Assembly (NCBI GenBank): GCA_946414075.1
Contig: CAMKNA010000005.1
Span: 1 to 64,000, forward strand
Source of the DNA: an uncultured Fibrobacter sp.
GTDB taxonomy: Bacteria > Fibrobacterota > Fibrobacteria > Fibrobacterales > Fibrobacteraceae
DNA length: 64,000 nucleotides
Direction: 5' to 3'
In this document: piece by piece, positions 36,620-43,247 of the stretch
How positions within the stretch are numbered: the first letter of the stretch is position 1
Layout of the letters: every line of letters begins with the position of its first letter
Made by a program: the position numbers and the translations under genes
The notes under the pieces: model-generated
Databases searched by the model: none
What the model was told of the DNA's origin: nothing
The model's input: the letters and a program-made list of their open reading frames with translations, nothing else

Positions 36620-37366
36620 ATGAAACGATTGCCTGCCAAAGGGTCTTCGGTAGAATGCCGGATTCAGGAGGCCTTGTTTCACGCTCAGGACCTGAAGTTT
36701 AAGGCCTTCCACAGCAGGCTGATCCCTACAATTCCTGCAGATACAGTCATCGGCGTGCGGACTCCGGAACTGCGCCGTATCGCAAAGGAATTCGGCTCTA
36801 ACCCAGACATCAAAAATTTCCTGGAAAAGCTCCCGCACAAGTATTACGACGAGAACCAGGTTCATTCCTTTATCCTGTCGGGCATCAAGAACTTTGACGA
36901 ATGCGTTGAGCAGGTAGAAAAATTCCTGCCCTATGTGGACAACTGGGCTACCTGTGACCAGCTGAGGCCCAAAGTGTTGGGGAATACGGCAGAACACCGT
37001 GAGCGTCTGCTGAAATCGGTGAAGTTTTGGATGCAGGGCAAACTGGTCTCTGGTAAGCGGGTTCAGGACGACACCTATGTGGTGCGCTTTGGAATCGAGA
37101 TGTTGATGACTTACTTTTTGGATAAGGATTTCGATCCGGCCTACCTGAAAAAAGTCGCCGCCATCCGCCGTGAAGATTACTATGTGAAGATGATGGTGGC
37201 CTGGTATTTTGCCACGGCACTAGCCAAGCAGTACGAGACTACCTTGCCCTTTATTCAGGGCCGAAAGCTTGAGCCCTGGACCCACAACAAGGCAATTCAG
37301 AAGGCCATCGAAAGCTACAGGATTACCCCCGAACAAAAGACGTACCTAAAAACGCTGAAAGTGTAG
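36620..37366 (+). CDS. AlkD-like DNA alkylation repair / HEAT-repeat protein
   Basis: The 248-residue protein has the helical repeat pattern and conserved blocks of the DNA alkylation repair family (PADTVIGVRTPELRRIAKEF near residue 35, YVDNWATCDQL near 110, FGIEMLMTYFLD, VKMMVAWYFATALAKQYE). The family includes AlkD-type glycosylases for bulky alkyl bases and relatives without proven activity. Asp of VDNWATCD is at the usual catalytic position. It follows the secreted protein by six bases. Confidence 0.88.
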   Translation: MKRLPAKGSSVECRIQEALFHAQDLKFKAFHSRLIPTIPADTVIGVRTPELRRIAKEFGSNPDIKNFLEKLPHKYYDENQVHSFILSGIKNFDECVEQVEKFLPYVDNWATCDQLRPKVLGNTAEHRERLLKSVKFWMQGKLVSGKRVQDDTYVVRFGIEMLMTYFLDKDFDPAYLKKVAAIRREDYYVKMMVAWYFATALAKQYETTLPFIQGRKLEPWTHNKAIQKAIESYRITPEQKTYLKTLKV

Positions 37367-37378
37367 ACGGTAATGTCA

Positions 37379-37519
37379 TTGCGCAGAGCGCATGACTGCA
37401 TCGGCTCGGCAATAGAACACGCAAGCGGTTCTGCTGCTCTCGCCTCGCGTGTCATTGCGAGCGTAGCGAAGTAATCTCTATCTCGGCTTTTGTCATGTCC
37501 CGCTTGACGGGGCATCTCC
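37379..37519. repeat. array of three related GTCAT-headed palindromic repeats
   Basis: The gap between the AlkD-like gene and the NERD gene holds three short units. Each begins GTCAT: GTCATTGCG-CAGAGCGC-ATGACTG, GTCATTGCG-AGCGTAGCG-AAGTAATCTC, and (37492-37519) GTCATGTCC-CGCTTGACG-GGGCATCTCC. The last is the inverted counterpart of the unit at 40458-40485. Such units are typical of dispersed intergenic repeats. No promoter or terminator is obvious. Confidence 0.6.
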
Positions 37520-37569
37520 TATTGAAGTACGGTCGGTGACACCAAGAGTTGTCTGTTTCCAAGCTTGTA

Positions 37570-38844
37570 TTACAGACGATGTTTATCAGAGTAAAGGGAC
37601 TCTAATTTTTTGCATATCTCATTTTGTAGTTGTTCGGAGATTTTTCGCTTATTTGGAATGTTTCCCAATTCATCAGATAGGTATTGAATTCGCCAAATGG
37701 GAACACTAGGTTTATCTTCGAGACAGATTATATCCGCATTTGCCATAACAACCCTTGGCTCTACCCATTTTTTTTCTTTATTCCTGCAAAAATCAGCTTC
37801 CAAATAATCCGCTAGTCGCGCAGCATTTCTTTTTGCCTGGTTGGTCGGATCATCCTTAAGTTTATGTCGTTTTTTTCCTTTATAGTAGAACCAATCCTCT
37901 TGTACATTTTCATACTTACCATTATAGGTTTTTACTTCAAACACAAAAACACCTTGTGGAGAAACCCAAATTATGTCTATATCCTCTTTTTGACCAGGCA
38001 ATACGCAGTTTCTGAATATGTGACTCGAACCGTCTAGAGCCTCGCGCATAATATCTACAACTTTATCTTCTCCATCTCTTCCCTGCTTATGATTCTTTAT
38101 GGACGAGTCATACTTGTCTATTTTCTTTTCAAGTGTCTGTGTTATAATGAAATTAATAATGGATAAGATAATGACGATAAAGGTGACAATGAAAGCCAAT
38201 CCAATAAACTTTGTTTCTAGTATAAATTTAATAAGAGTGGGAATTGCGCCAATGACTCCCATATATATAAAATCAGCAATTAATAGAATTGCGCATATAG
38301 CGAGAATCGCTCCAACAAATATTCCCTTCTTAAAAGAAATTATTTCAACCTGTTCCTCCATGAAACTTCGATTTGCAGTCACTTTAAGTGCACCTTTTGT
38401 TTCATTTGCCCGATTGTTTTCAATACCTAATTGGTAGGTGAGTATAATGCGCGAAGCCTCGCGAACTTGTTCATCCCAGGCTTTTTCTAAGGCATAGGCT
38501 AAATCCCGTTTGGTTATATCCCGATTGTCCGCGAGTTCGCCCATTGTTTGTCCTGTTTTGCCTAAATATTTGCTAAATGGCCAAACAACAGCTCTGGCTT
38601 CATCTATGTTTCTTGGTAGTTTCCCCTTTTCAATAAAATTTTTCGTACTCTTTTGTTTTTGTGCTAAAAATACTTTGCAAGCCTCTTTAATAGCAGGGTC
38701 ATATGCATTATGTGCGCCCCATTCTAAACGTCGTATGTTTAGAAATCCATTATCAAAAAGTTCGCCCATAGGCCTGTAATTGTTCTTAAGCCAATAGACG
38801 CCGCGTGCGCGTTCTAATGTCATAAATGAATTGGGGTTTAGCAT
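37570..38844 (-). CDS. membrane NERD-domain nuclease-like protein with duplicated N-terminal module
   Basis: The 424-residue protein has three parts. First is an N-terminal region (about 10-150) with two copies of a module. The copies are related to each other in WLKNNYRPMGELFDN...AYDPAIKEACKVFL and the later KTGQTMGELADN...AWDEQVREASRIIL. Second are two membrane helices (about 180-215 and 225-250). Third is a cytoplasmic NERD domain near 275-370 with DIDIIWVSPQGVFVFEVKTYNG, which keeps the Asp and ExK of a PD-(D/E)xK-like site. NERD proteins are nuclease-related and some are associated with DNA processing or defence. The start at 38844 overlaps the upstream stop as TAATG. The gene is AT-rich against its neighbours. 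Confidence 0.82.
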   Translation of the reverse strand: MLNPNSFMTLERARGVYWLKNNYRPMGELFDNGFLNIRRLEWGAHNAYDPAIKEACKVFLAQKQKSTKNFIEKGKLPRNIDEARAVVWPFSKYLGKTGQTMGELADNRDITKRDLAYALEKAWDEQVREASRIILTYQLGIENNRANETKGALKVTANRSFMEEQVEIISFKKGIFVGAILAICAILLIADFIYMGVIGAIPTLIKFILETKFIGLAFIVTFIVIILSIINFIITQTLEKKIDKYDSSIKNHKQGRDGEDKVVDIMREALDGSSHIFRNCVLPGQKEDIDIIWVSPQGVFVFEVKTYNGKYENVQEDWFYYKGKKRHKLKDDPTNQAKRNAARLADYLEADFCRNKEKKWVEPRVVMANADIICLEDKPSVPIWRIQYLSDELGNIPNKRKISEQLQNEICKKLESLYSDKHRL

Positions 38845-40379
38845 TATTCCTTCTCCCAAGCAAGGATAGGATAGCCGGCGTTTAGGCCGCTGTCATAGAC
38901 AAAGTCGTCGCCGAGGAGTTTGGCAAAGTCGGCAGATTTCATTTCGGTTTCGGTCTTGGGAGTTGCCACGCCCCCGCCGTTGTTCTGGCCAAAGGGTTCC
39001 TGGTCGCCTTGTTTCAGGTAATAGTAATCCGCCATGGTGGTATTGTAGTTGTAGCCAATCATTAGGCCCACAAGGGAATCGCCATCGACTTTGCCGGTGG
39101 AATAGGCGGAGCTGGTTACGCCTTCTTGATTGTAACCAGTAATTCCACCAACATTGATTGATCCCGATACATCAGCGGTATTGTATATGCTATTTGTGGT
39201 TGAATTATTTATGTATCCGAATAACCCTCCAACATATTTTTTTCCGTTAACAACGCCACTATTCGCAGCACCTTTATTTGTTGAATTTTCATTTTTACCG
39301 ACAATACCACCGACATATTCTTTCCCTTCAATTTTCCCTGAATTCTCTATATTTGTTATATCTCCCGCAGCCCCTTTAGAACAACAATATCCATAATTAC
39401 CAATTATACCACCTACCGATTCATTCCCTGTAACATTTCCAAAATTTCTTGAGTTTGATAGTTTTGAGTTCTTCCCTAAATTTCCTGCAATTCCTCCCGT
39501 AAGAGATGAACCTGAAATATCAGTGTGATTTTCGGCTTCAGAAATTACAATATCTTGAGCACTACCAATAACGCCCCCAACATATTTTAATGCAGATACC
39601 ATCCCATAATTCTTTACATTTTTAACTGTTCCAATTTTATTGCAGCATACAAAAGTGTAATTACCAACAACCCCGCCAACACCATCACCTGTTCCAATAA
39701 TCGTTGCTTGGTTAATAGAATTTGTTACGGCCGCTGTTCCTGAGATATTTCCAATAATTCCTCCTGTAAACTTTCCTCCTGTTACCCACGAATTATCGAC
39801 GGTAACATTTGACACTGTTCCGCTAGAATTTCCAAACAATCCGTTATGAGAACTTGTGGTATTGATAAACATTCCGCTTATAGTATGCCCATTGCCGTCA
39901 AATGTTCCGTCAAAGGCGATGCTAGAATTTCCGATGGGAGTCCACTTATGGAGTTTGGCAGAATCACCGACCAAGCCTCCCTTGTCATCGATGACCTTCC
40001 CGTCGTTCAGTTTGATGTCTGCCGCCAACTTGTAATATTTACCGCTAAAATTCTTGTCGTTGGCATTTACAACAAAAGACAGATGGGCCAGTTGTTCCGC
40101 CGTCAAGATGATGAACGGACTCAACTTGGTTCCCGAACCGCAGGCAAAATCCTTTGCCGTGGTACCGTCCCAGGGCTTACCCAATTCTCCAACGCAGTCC
40201 TCATTGAGGACTTCTTCCGAACCATTCGAACCCGAAGATCCATTATCGGAGCCCTTGCTATCGGAACTATTTTCGGCAGAGGATTTTTCCTCGTCATCAT
40301 TTGAGGACGCTGACACCGTATGCGAGCAGGCGACAAACATTGCTACCATTCCAAGAATGACAAATAACGCTTTGCGCAT
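38844..40379 (-). CDS. lipoprotein with GLUG-motif repeats
   Basis: The 511-residue protein has a lipobox (MFVAC, Cys18), a Ser/Asp/Glu-rich linker (about 25-60), then a domain beginning LGKPWDGTTAKDFACGSGTK. At least eight repeats centred on GG-I/V-x-G-N/Y follow (GGIIGNIS, GGVVGNYT, GGVIGSAQ, GGIAGNLG, GGIIGNYG, GGIVGKNE, GGLFGYIN, GGITGYNQ), as in GLUG proteins such as IgA protease-like adhesins. It ends with a short WEKE tail. The middle of the gene (about 39130-39800) is very AT-rich while both ends are like the rest of the genome. A strong ribosome site (AAGGAG) is present. It is coupled to the NERD gene (TAATG). Possible adhesin; function unknown. Confidence 0.82.
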   Translation of the reverse strand: MRKALFVILGMVAMFVACSHTVSASSNDDEEKSSAENSSDSKGSDNGSSGSNGSEEVLNEDCVGELGKPWDGTTAKDFACGSGTKLSPFIILTAEQLAHLSFVVNANDKNFSGKYYKLAADIKLNDGKVIDDKGGLVGDSAKLHKWTPIGNSSIAFDGTFDGNGHTISGMFINTTSSHNGLFGNSSGTVSNVTVDNSWVTGGKFTGGIIGNISGTAAVTNSINQATIIGTGDGVGGVVGNYTFVCCNKIGTVKNVKNYGMVSALKYVGGVIGSAQDIVISEAENHTDISGSSLTGGIAGNLGKNSKLSNSRNFGNVTGNESVGGIIGNYGYCCSKGAAGDITNIENSGKIEGKEYVGGIVGKNENSTNKGAANSGVVNGKKYVGGLFGYINNSTTNSIYNTADVSGSINVGGITGYNQEGVTSSAYSTGKVDGDSLVGLMIGYNYNTTMADYYYLKQGDQEPFGQNNGGGVATPKTETEMKSADFAKLLGDDFVYDSGLNAGYPILAWEKE

Positions 40380-40457
40380 ATAAGGCTCCTTCTAACCCCT
40401 TTGACTTGCAGTTTGGGGCTATGTCATTAGTTAATATATATTATTCAAAATGAAAAA

Positions 40458-40485
40458 GGAGATGCCGGGACAAGCCTGGCATGAC
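40458..40485 (+). repeat. 28-nt palindromic repeat unit, copy B
   Basis: The unit GGAGATGCC-GGGACAAGCCTGG-CATGAC matches 22 of 28 positions with the minus-strand unit at 37492-37519. Differences are concentrated in the hairpin arms. The two copies lie in opposite orientation on either side of the NERD/GLUG genes. Confidence 0.6.
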
Positions 40486-40772
40486 AAGAGGACGCACATG
40501 TGTGACTAAAGGGCGTGTGGCATGATAAGATGGTGGTTGCGAAGGAACACCGTGACCGAGCAACCTCCTGCGTAGCGAACCCATTTTTCGAGGCGAGAGG
40601 GCATAGTTGCTAGGCAAAAAATCCGGAGGGTAGCGACGAACAAAGTGAAGTTGCGACCGACGGTCTTTTTTGCAGGCGACTGTGCCCTTGAGACTCGGAT
40701 TATTTAAGGGGGCGTTGCGGGGGACTCCCCGCAGAGGGGGTAGCGGAAAATGCGGCGGGTATGGAATGGTGG

Positions 40773-40790
40773 CCCCGGCATTCGCCGGGG
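40773..40790. repeat. perfect GC-rich hairpin CCCCGGC-ATTC-GCCGGGG
   Basis: Seven-base-pair perfect stem with a 4-base loop, followed by TGACAG as in the other repeat units. It is about 130 bases before the maeB start. Confidence 0.6.
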
Positions 40791-40880
40791 TGACAGTCGG
40801 ATAGAGCCGCAGTTGTAGCGAGGGGGAGACTTCCCCCTTCGTCCCATCAAAACACCCTTGGGGCTTTGTAAACTTTTTTC

Positions 40881-40888
40881 TATATTTG
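40881..40888 (+). promoter_or_regulatory. TAnnTTTG box of maeB
   Basis: TATATTTG lies 34 bases before the maeB ATG. A TTG is found 20 bases upstream of the box. This gene has a normal leader with AAAAGGAAAAA before the start. Confidence 0.6.
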
Positions 40889-40922
40889 GGCGCGAAAAAA
40901 TGCATTTCCAAAAGGAAAAATT

Positions 40923-43247
40923 ATGAGCAAGGATTTGAAGGAACAGGCGCTTGAATACCACGCCATGGGCAAACCCGGCAAGATCGAAATCGTGCCCACC
41001 AAGCCCCACAGCACCCAGACAGACTTGGGTCTCGCGTACACTCCGGGCGTGGCCGCGCCCTGCCTTGAAATCGAGAAGGACAACAACCTGGCCTACGAAT
41101 ACACCGGCAAGGGCAACTTGGTGGCGGTGATCAGTAACGGTACCGCCGTGCTCGGCCTCGGTGACATTGGTGCCCTAGCTGGCAAACCCGTGATGGAAGG
41201 CAAGGCCCTTTTGTTCAAGATTTACGCCGGCATCGATGTGTTCGATATCGAAATCAACGAGAAGGACCCCAAGAAGTTCATCGAGATCGTGAAGGGGATC
41301 GCACCCACCTTTGGCGGCATCAACCTGGAAGATATCAAGGCTCCGGAATGCTTTGAGATCGAGGACACTCTCAAGGAACAGCTTGACATTCCCGTGATGC
41401 ACGACGACCAGCACGGAACCGCTATTATTTCTTCTGCGGGCTTGTTGAACGCCATCGAGGTGGCGGGCAAGAGCATCCGCGAAGTCAAAATGGTGGTGAA
41501 CGGCGCCGGCGCCGCCGCCTGCGCCTGCACCCGCCTGTACCTATCGCTTGGTCTCAAGAAAGAGAACCTGGTCATGTGCGACAGTAAGGGCGTCATCCGC
41601 AAGGACCGCAAGGGCCTTACCGAAGCCAAAGCCTTCTTTGCCACCGACCGCACCGACATCGAGACCCTGGCCGACGCCATGAAGGGTGCCGACGTGTTCG
41701 TGGGCCTTTCCAAGGGCAACATCCTCAACCGCGAAATGATCCGCAGCATGGCGGACCAGCCCATCGTTTTTGCCCTGGCGAACCCCACTCCCGAAATTAG
41801 CTACGAAGAGGCCATGGCCAGCCGTGGCGACCTGATTTTTGCAACGGGCCGTAGCGACTACCCGAACCAGGTAAACAACGTCATCGGCTTTCCTTACATC
41901 TTCCGTGGGGCCCTGGATGTGCGTGCCACCTGCATCAACGAGCACATGAAGCATGCCGCCGTGCGTGCCATTGCCGCCCTGGCCCACCAGCCGGTGCCCG
42001 ATGTGGTGAACATCGCCTACAACGCCCAGCGTTTTACCTTTGGCAAGGAATACCTGATTCCGAAGCCCCTGGACCCGCGCCTGCTTACGGATGTCTCTAT
42101 CGCCGTTGCCAAGGCGGCCATCGAGAGCGGCGTGGCCCGCAAGCCCATTACCGACTGGGACGCCTACTACGACAAGCTCCGCGACATGATGGGCTACGAC
42201 AACAAGCTCATCCGCCAGTTCAGCGATACCGCCCGCAGCAACCCCAAGCGCGTGGTGTTTGCCGAGGGCGACAATCTCAACATGCTCAAGGCCGCCGTAC
42301 AGGCAAAGCTCGAAGGGGTCGCCCATCCGATTCTGCTGGGTAACGCCGAACGCATTCAGATGATGGCGAACAAGGAACAGCTGGACCTTACGGGCATCAA
42401 GATTGTGAACCCCCGTTCTCCCGAAGAATTCGAACGGCGCCGCAAGTATGCCGGCATTTACGCCGAAGAGAATGGCCGCAACGGCGTCACCTTCGACGAG
42501 GCCCGCGATGACATGTTCGAGCCGAACCACTTCGGCATGATGATGGTGAAGGTAGGCGATGCCGACGCATTCATTACGGGCGGCTACTCCAAGTACAGCG
42601 AGACTATTGAACTGGCCAAGGAAATCATCGGCATCCGCGAAGAATACAAGCACTTCGGGGCCATGCACATCCTGAGCACCCGCAAGGGCACCTTCTTCTT
42701 GGCGGACACTCTGGTGAACCGCGACCCCGATGCCGAAACGCTAGTGGATATCGTAAAGCTCACTCACGACGCCGTGAAGTTCTTTGCCCACGAACCGGTG
42801 ATGGCCATGCTCAGCTACGCAAACTTCGGTAGCGATAAGGGCGCCGCCCGGGGAACTTCCAATACGGCCCGCGAAGCGGTGAAAATCCTCCACGAAAAGT
42901 ATCCTGAATACGCTATCGACGGCGAGATGCAGGTAAATGTGGCCCTGGACAAGGAACTGCGCGACACCAAGTACCCCTTCAACAAGCTCAAGGGCCAGAC
43001 CGTCAATACGCTCATCTTCCCTTGCCTCTCTTCGGCGAATACCACCTGCAAGATGCTCCTGGAAATGGGCGTTGGCGAATCTATCGGTCCCGTGCAGATG
43101 GGTTTGAACAAGCCAGTACACTTCACCGACTCCGACGCCTCCGTTCACGACATCTTCAACCTGACTGTGGCCGCCGTCATCGACGCCATCGTCCAGGAGA
43201 AGAAGGACGAAGAGAAAGATCGGAGAAAGTTCGACCGGATCTGGTAG
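40923..43247 (+). CDS. maeB: NADP-dependent malic enzyme with phosphotransacetylase-like domain
   Basis: MaeB decarboxylates malate to pyruvate, producing NADPH. The 774-residue protein has the malic enzyme domain (about 1-430: [69 protein letters not shown]). The C-terminal half (about 435-774) is a phosphate acetyltransferase-like domain ([27 protein letters not shown]), normally regulatory rather than catalytic in MaeB. Size and domain order are as in other long malic enzymes. It is the only gene in its transcript; pheA is convergent directly after the stop. Confidence 0.96.

Follow-up and report, generated by a model that had tools for sequence, protein, structure and literature searches.

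The window, that is, the whole stretch of 64,000 nucleotides analyzed here, is part of a 2.31-Mb Fibrobacter assembly that is 82% complete. A variable slot (37367..40922) is located in this window between a DNA-alkylation-repair-like gene (36620-37366) and the gene for malic enzyme (40923-43247). Two genes on the minus strand occupy the slot: one for a 511-aa lipoprotein with GLUG repeats (38844..40379) and, downstream of it, one for a 424-aa NERD membrane nuclease-like protein (37570..38844). As stated in the original prediction, both genes are real and overlap at GGAATAATGC, where the TAA stop codon of the GLUG gene and the ATG start codon of the NERD gene have one base in common. In this coupling junction (GAGAAGGAATAATG, 38842..38855, minus strand), the last GLUG codons are the likely Shine-Dalgarno sequence (AAGGA) for the NERD ATG. 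The pair is also AT-rich, as had been noticed, with 37% GC for the NERD gene and 44% GC for the GLUG gene versus 47-59% in most neighboring kilobases.

In the NERD protein that had been proposed at 37570-38844, the domain was recovered by the Pfam profile (PF08378, E = 1.1e-19, residues 255-367; 71.4 bits versus a gathering score of 22.1), with only a sub-threshold match to TraG_N besides it. The protein starts with a domain of ~55 aa in tandem duplicate (repeat alignment score of 77 versus a shuffle maximum of 41), followed by two hydrophobic segments and then by the NERD domain. By hydropathy, these segments are two predicted transmembrane helices (the hydrophobic windows begin at residues 166-188 and 204-222), with positive charge flanking their outer sides. 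In an alignment of seven homologues (A1), all PD-(D/E)xK catalytic residues are kept, and E259, D288, D290, E303, K305, and Q336 are invariant. The AF2 model has a pLDDT of 72, and its best Foldseek matches, all below significance, are mostly PD-(D/E)xK-type nucleases such as Can2. Full-length homologues of this architecture were found eight times in 111 Fibrobacteraceae genomes, and strong matches in 9 of 168 genomes of the phylum. Two of the eight, in G059 and G102, are decayed by in-frame stops. No close relatives were found in the genome_contigs collection and no matches in the phage or plasmid collections. PADLOC matches of the NERD protein are partial and, for both PglW and MkoA, extend over no more than the NERD domain; a complete PADLOC defense system was not found for the pair, and the GLUG protein had no PADLOC match.

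The lipoprotein gene had likewise been placed correctly at 38844-40379, although its match to the GLUG profile is weak (PF07581, E = 7.8e-4, 20.1 bits versus a cut-off of 20.5). The protein consists of a lipobox-like N terminus (C18), a linker rich in Ser, Asp, and Glu, a conserved N domain (60-186), a hypervariable AT-rich β-helix (187-409), and a conserved C-terminal region (410-511). The lipobox cysteine C18 (..MFVAC|S) is invariant in 19 orthologues, as read by eye from the alignment (A2). The two ends have pairwise identities of ~0.8, versus 0.32-0.49 for the middle, in which the third-position GC falls from ~0.5 to 0.27. The β-helix was modeled by AF2 with a pLDDT of >90 over much of residues 210-390, and by Foldseek it is nearest to the GLUG-type β-helix of M26 IgA1 proteases; both results speak for the GLUG assignment. 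The relatives encoding GLUG proteins are nearly all gut Fibrobacter MAGs. A GLUG orthologue was also found on a contig of a MAG labeled Paludibacteraceae (L241), which is probably misbinned Fibrobacter DNA.

In total, 40 full-length GLUG orthologues from Fibrobacteraceae were analyzed with their surroundings; many of the MAGs are incomplete, related loci are non-independent, gene calling was mechanical, and in some cases a lack of downstream cargo may reflect a contig end (e.g., L144). A NERD gene was counted if located on the same strand within the first 2.8 kb downstream of the GLUG gene. By this definition, membrane NERD genes were found behind 21 of the 40 orthologues versus ~0.05 expected by chance. 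This expectation was calculated from the NERD frequency, with ~145 genes scoring over the cut-off among 111 genomes that are each about 3 Mb in size. The same GLUG-NERD pair is present at another locus in G020 (57% identity for GLUG, 67% for NERD, 1-nt gap), so that the pair recurs, as had been proposed to be checked. The NERD proteins found behind GLUG have three architectures, C36 (2 loci), C1 (12 loci), and C6 (7 loci), and other cargo includes zinc-ribbon/OB (tRNA_anti-like), RDD, and bPH proteins. Neither gene strictly requires the other, because GLUG occurs without NERD in 19/40 loci and the NERD family of the window occurs without GLUG in 6/8 full-length occurrences (G021, G059, G035, G091, G097, and G102). 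No significant link was detected between the GLUG variable region and the cargo type (50 of 500 shuffles were as good). A three-gene zinc-ribbon/RDD/NERD cassette without a GLUG gene was found in G054 and G061 (L162, L163). The GLUG gene of G110 was considered as a remnant and rejected, since its two pieces end two contigs; the assembly has probably split one gene.

The tight junction of the window is common among these loci. The first cargo gene starts from -1 to +7 nt relative to the GLUG stop codon in 17/40 loci, and this cargo belongs to classes C36, C3, C1, C6, and C14; for the two C14 loci among them, a start ~28 nt downstream with its own Shine-Dalgarno sequence, GAGGT, is likelier. Such junctions occur with unrelated cargo; hence, genes are exchanged with almost single-nucleotide precision downstream of a lipoprotein platform that stays constant. 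The tail of the GLUG gene (..GAGAAGGAA-stop) supplies AGGA at the proper distance before the cargo ATG. Motifs resembling a Shine-Dalgarno sequence were found in 14 of the 17 coupled loci versus 5 of the other 23 (Fisher p = 3e-4, uncorrected for relatedness). Thus, the last GLUG codons, in which the motif is seen directly, probably double as the ribosome-binding site of the cargo. Conservation at 4-fold sites is 0.36 for residues 461-511 and 0.42 for residues 410-460, versus 0.36 in the GLUG N domain. Gene conversion at the 3' end was rejected as a driver of the exchange, these sites showing no strong synonymous signal.

The same chromosomal sites bear different GLUG/NERD cassettes in different species. 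At one site (A; L027, L118, L135, L136, and L160), GLUG is followed by C12 and C6 in G062 and by C3, C4, and C1 in G057 and G088. Reduced forms were found there in G056, where C3' and C1 are preceded by a GLUG remnant of the last ~50 codons, and in G059, with only a decayed NERD gene. At another site (B; L122, L129, L130, and L161), GLUG and C6 are present in G093, G094, and G096, and NERD only in G021.

The slot of the window is variable in a similar way, and both genes flanking it are conserved in nearly all members of the genus. Presence or absence of the pair between relatives had been suggested as a check, and it does vary. The slot is empty in three relatives, with 115 nt in G031, ~126 nt in G032, and 206 nt in G085, and it is occupied by restriction-modification or type IIG genes in four others. 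In G067, G023, and G065 these are N6-methylase and specificity genes (type IIG-like), and in G024 (L150) the slot contains an MmeI-type IIG enzyme, an EndoU nuclease, and a ToxN-like toxin. The GLUG-NERD site is, thus, a variable slot shared with defense genes. The slot of the window also contains an element that the original prediction had missed, a MITE-like 135-nt sequence forming a long imperfect hairpin (40578..40712, plus strand), which is a dispersed repeat with three copies in its own genome. The other two copies (G000 C11:26783-26916 and C3:78079-78203) are 99 and 79% identical to it, and in G067 and G023, whose slots are occupied, a near-identical element is located just upstream of the malic enzyme gene. 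An AT-rich gene for a 316-aa protein adjoins the C11 copy.

Defense contexts were also found for NERD genes away from this slot. Four distant full-length homologues (G035, G091, G097, and G102) are located in defense-type neighborhoods, with type I restriction-modification, GmrSD, Schlafen PDC-S50, and PDC-M30A genes as neighbors, as well as a weak AbiH match, JetC-like, and KAP PDC-S20 genes. Together with the data on the slot, these neighborhoods make defense, by association only, the most likely role. NERD domains are known from the defense proteins MkoA of Mokosh type I, Nhi-like, and PglW of BREX (PMC10952713) as well as from TALON (PMC12458937). The protein of the window has the NERD domain in common with all of these and partially matches the PglW and MkoA profiles, but those systems also comprise a helicase, a kinase, or other partners, whereas here only a short membrane protein follows the lipoprotein. 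Another known parallel is SNIPE, a membrane-bound anti-phage nuclease that cuts phage DNA at injection (PMC13190303). In both, the nuclease domain is anchored by transmembrane segments, and an attack on incoming DNA at the inner membrane is proposed. However, SNIPE combines GIY-YIG with DUF4041, neither of which was found by Pfam in the NERD (PD-(D/E)xK) protein of the window, and the putative defense protein described here has two transmembrane helices, its N-terminal domain is duplicated, and its gene is coupled to that of a surface-type lipoprotein. Among GLUG-motif β-helix proteins, the lipoprotein resembles the M26 IgA1 protease and surface adhesins in the predicted folding of its repeats as a parallel β-helix; unlike the protease, it has no protease domain, and it is anchored as a lipoprotein, its hypervariable middle lying between constant ends.

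Taken together, these observations are consistent with an exchangeable defense cassette, a reading to which we assign about even probability, in which the nuclease would cut foreign DNA at the membrane and the lipoprotein would be its partner or its translational platform. The conserved gene for the GLUG β-helix lipoprotein serves as a constant 5' platform for downstream genes that differ between species. In the window, the gene placed behind it encodes a NERD protein with all PD-(D/E)xK residues and two hydrophobic segments, in a slot where relatives have restriction systems. This putative nuclease would be anchored in the inner membrane on its cytoplasmic side and would cut foreign DNA on entry, and the tethering may spare the chromosome. 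More speculatively, the surface-type lipoprotein with its hypervariable β-helix might act as a phage sensor or decoy; alternatively, it might provide only co-translation and a recombination anchor.

The original prediction had also described the pair as an island bounded by inverted palindromic repeats. Pattern search and hairpin folding identified REP-like palindromes at 37491..37519 (minus strand) and 40458..40486 (plus strand), and this part of the description holds: the pair is flanked by two opposed units with 37-nt arms that are 78% complementary, both fit one pattern with 0-1 mismatches (none being expected by chance), and each folds as a hairpin on its own. Their role as island boundaries was ruled out, because the same pattern is dispersed at 11 places on nine contigs of the 2.31-Mb assembly. 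The six other copies inspected are at ordinary intergenic sites, beside or between ordinary genes, one of them just after an ftsZ-like gene. The locus gave only a sub-threshold match in Rfam. A mobile cassette simply bounded by these palindromes is very improbable: even the empty slot of G031 has a related palindrome of its own, and no transposase- or integrase-like ORF was found in the GLUG-NERD interval by ORF list or Pfam.

Two further explanations concern the roles of the two genes. The NERD protein could defend alone, with the lipoprotein being only a landing platform (a 3' Shine-Dalgarno sequence and recombination homology) that has an unrelated surface role. We consider this possible, if clearly less probable than the exchangeable defense cassette. 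It accounts for the 19/40 loci with GLUG alone, for the NERD family without GLUG in G021 and G059 and in the defense-type neighborhoods of G035, G091, G097, and G102, for the variable region being unlinked to cargo, for the Shine-Dalgarno-like codons being mostly in coupled loci, and for the last ~50 GLUG codons retained upstream of the G056 cargo. The solitary occurrences of both genes and the lack of a variant-cargo link also weaken an obligate partnership. Against a mere platform, separate NERD families independently arrive behind the same lipoprotein, and the GLUG 3' end barely exceeds the N domain in conservation at 4-fold sites, so that recent gene conversion there is not strongly indicated. 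An unlikely explanation is a module for envelope or surface maintenance, with a SmdA-like NERD protein in division or morphology and an adhesin as the lipoprotein. SmdA of Staphylococcus aureus, a one-transmembrane protein with a cytoplasmic part partially similar to NERD, acts in cell division and is needed for staphylococcal cell shape (PMC9040797), so NERD is not always a defense domain; GLUG β-helices, moreover, resemble adhesins and the IgA-protease β-helix. However, the gene for SmdA is monocistronic and conserved within its family, and the protein, according to its authors, lacks several of the residues that are most conserved in NERD (PMC9040797), whereas the NERD gene of the window is sporadic (8 full-length occurrences in 111 family genomes; strong matches in 9/168 phylum genomes), operonic, and keeps all catalytic residues. 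Accessory rather than housekeeping genes also fit the stop codons by which the G059 and G102 copies are decayed, the exchange of cassettes, and the sharing of slots with restriction-modification genes.

A broader form of the exchangeable defense cassette would be a class of Fibrobacter immune loci not described before, in which a surface lipoprotein with a hypervariable β-helix traps or senses phages and is translationally coupled to swappable inner-membrane entry nucleases. These would be installed exactly at its stop codon, with its last codons as their ribosome-binding site. We regard this form as doubtful. No GLUG lipoprotein-NERD pair was found in the literature searched, which leaves out most subscription journals, and little was found there on immunity in the Fibrobacter phylum, whose members are major cellulose degraders. 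Independently of function, the precise exchange of unrelated genes behind a constant gene that provides, in its own last codons, the ribosome-binding site of the following gene would represent an unusual way for a genome to keep a swappable effector slot. If the role in defense is correct, the locus would add a membrane-tethered NERD entry nuclease to the idea embodied by SNIPE.
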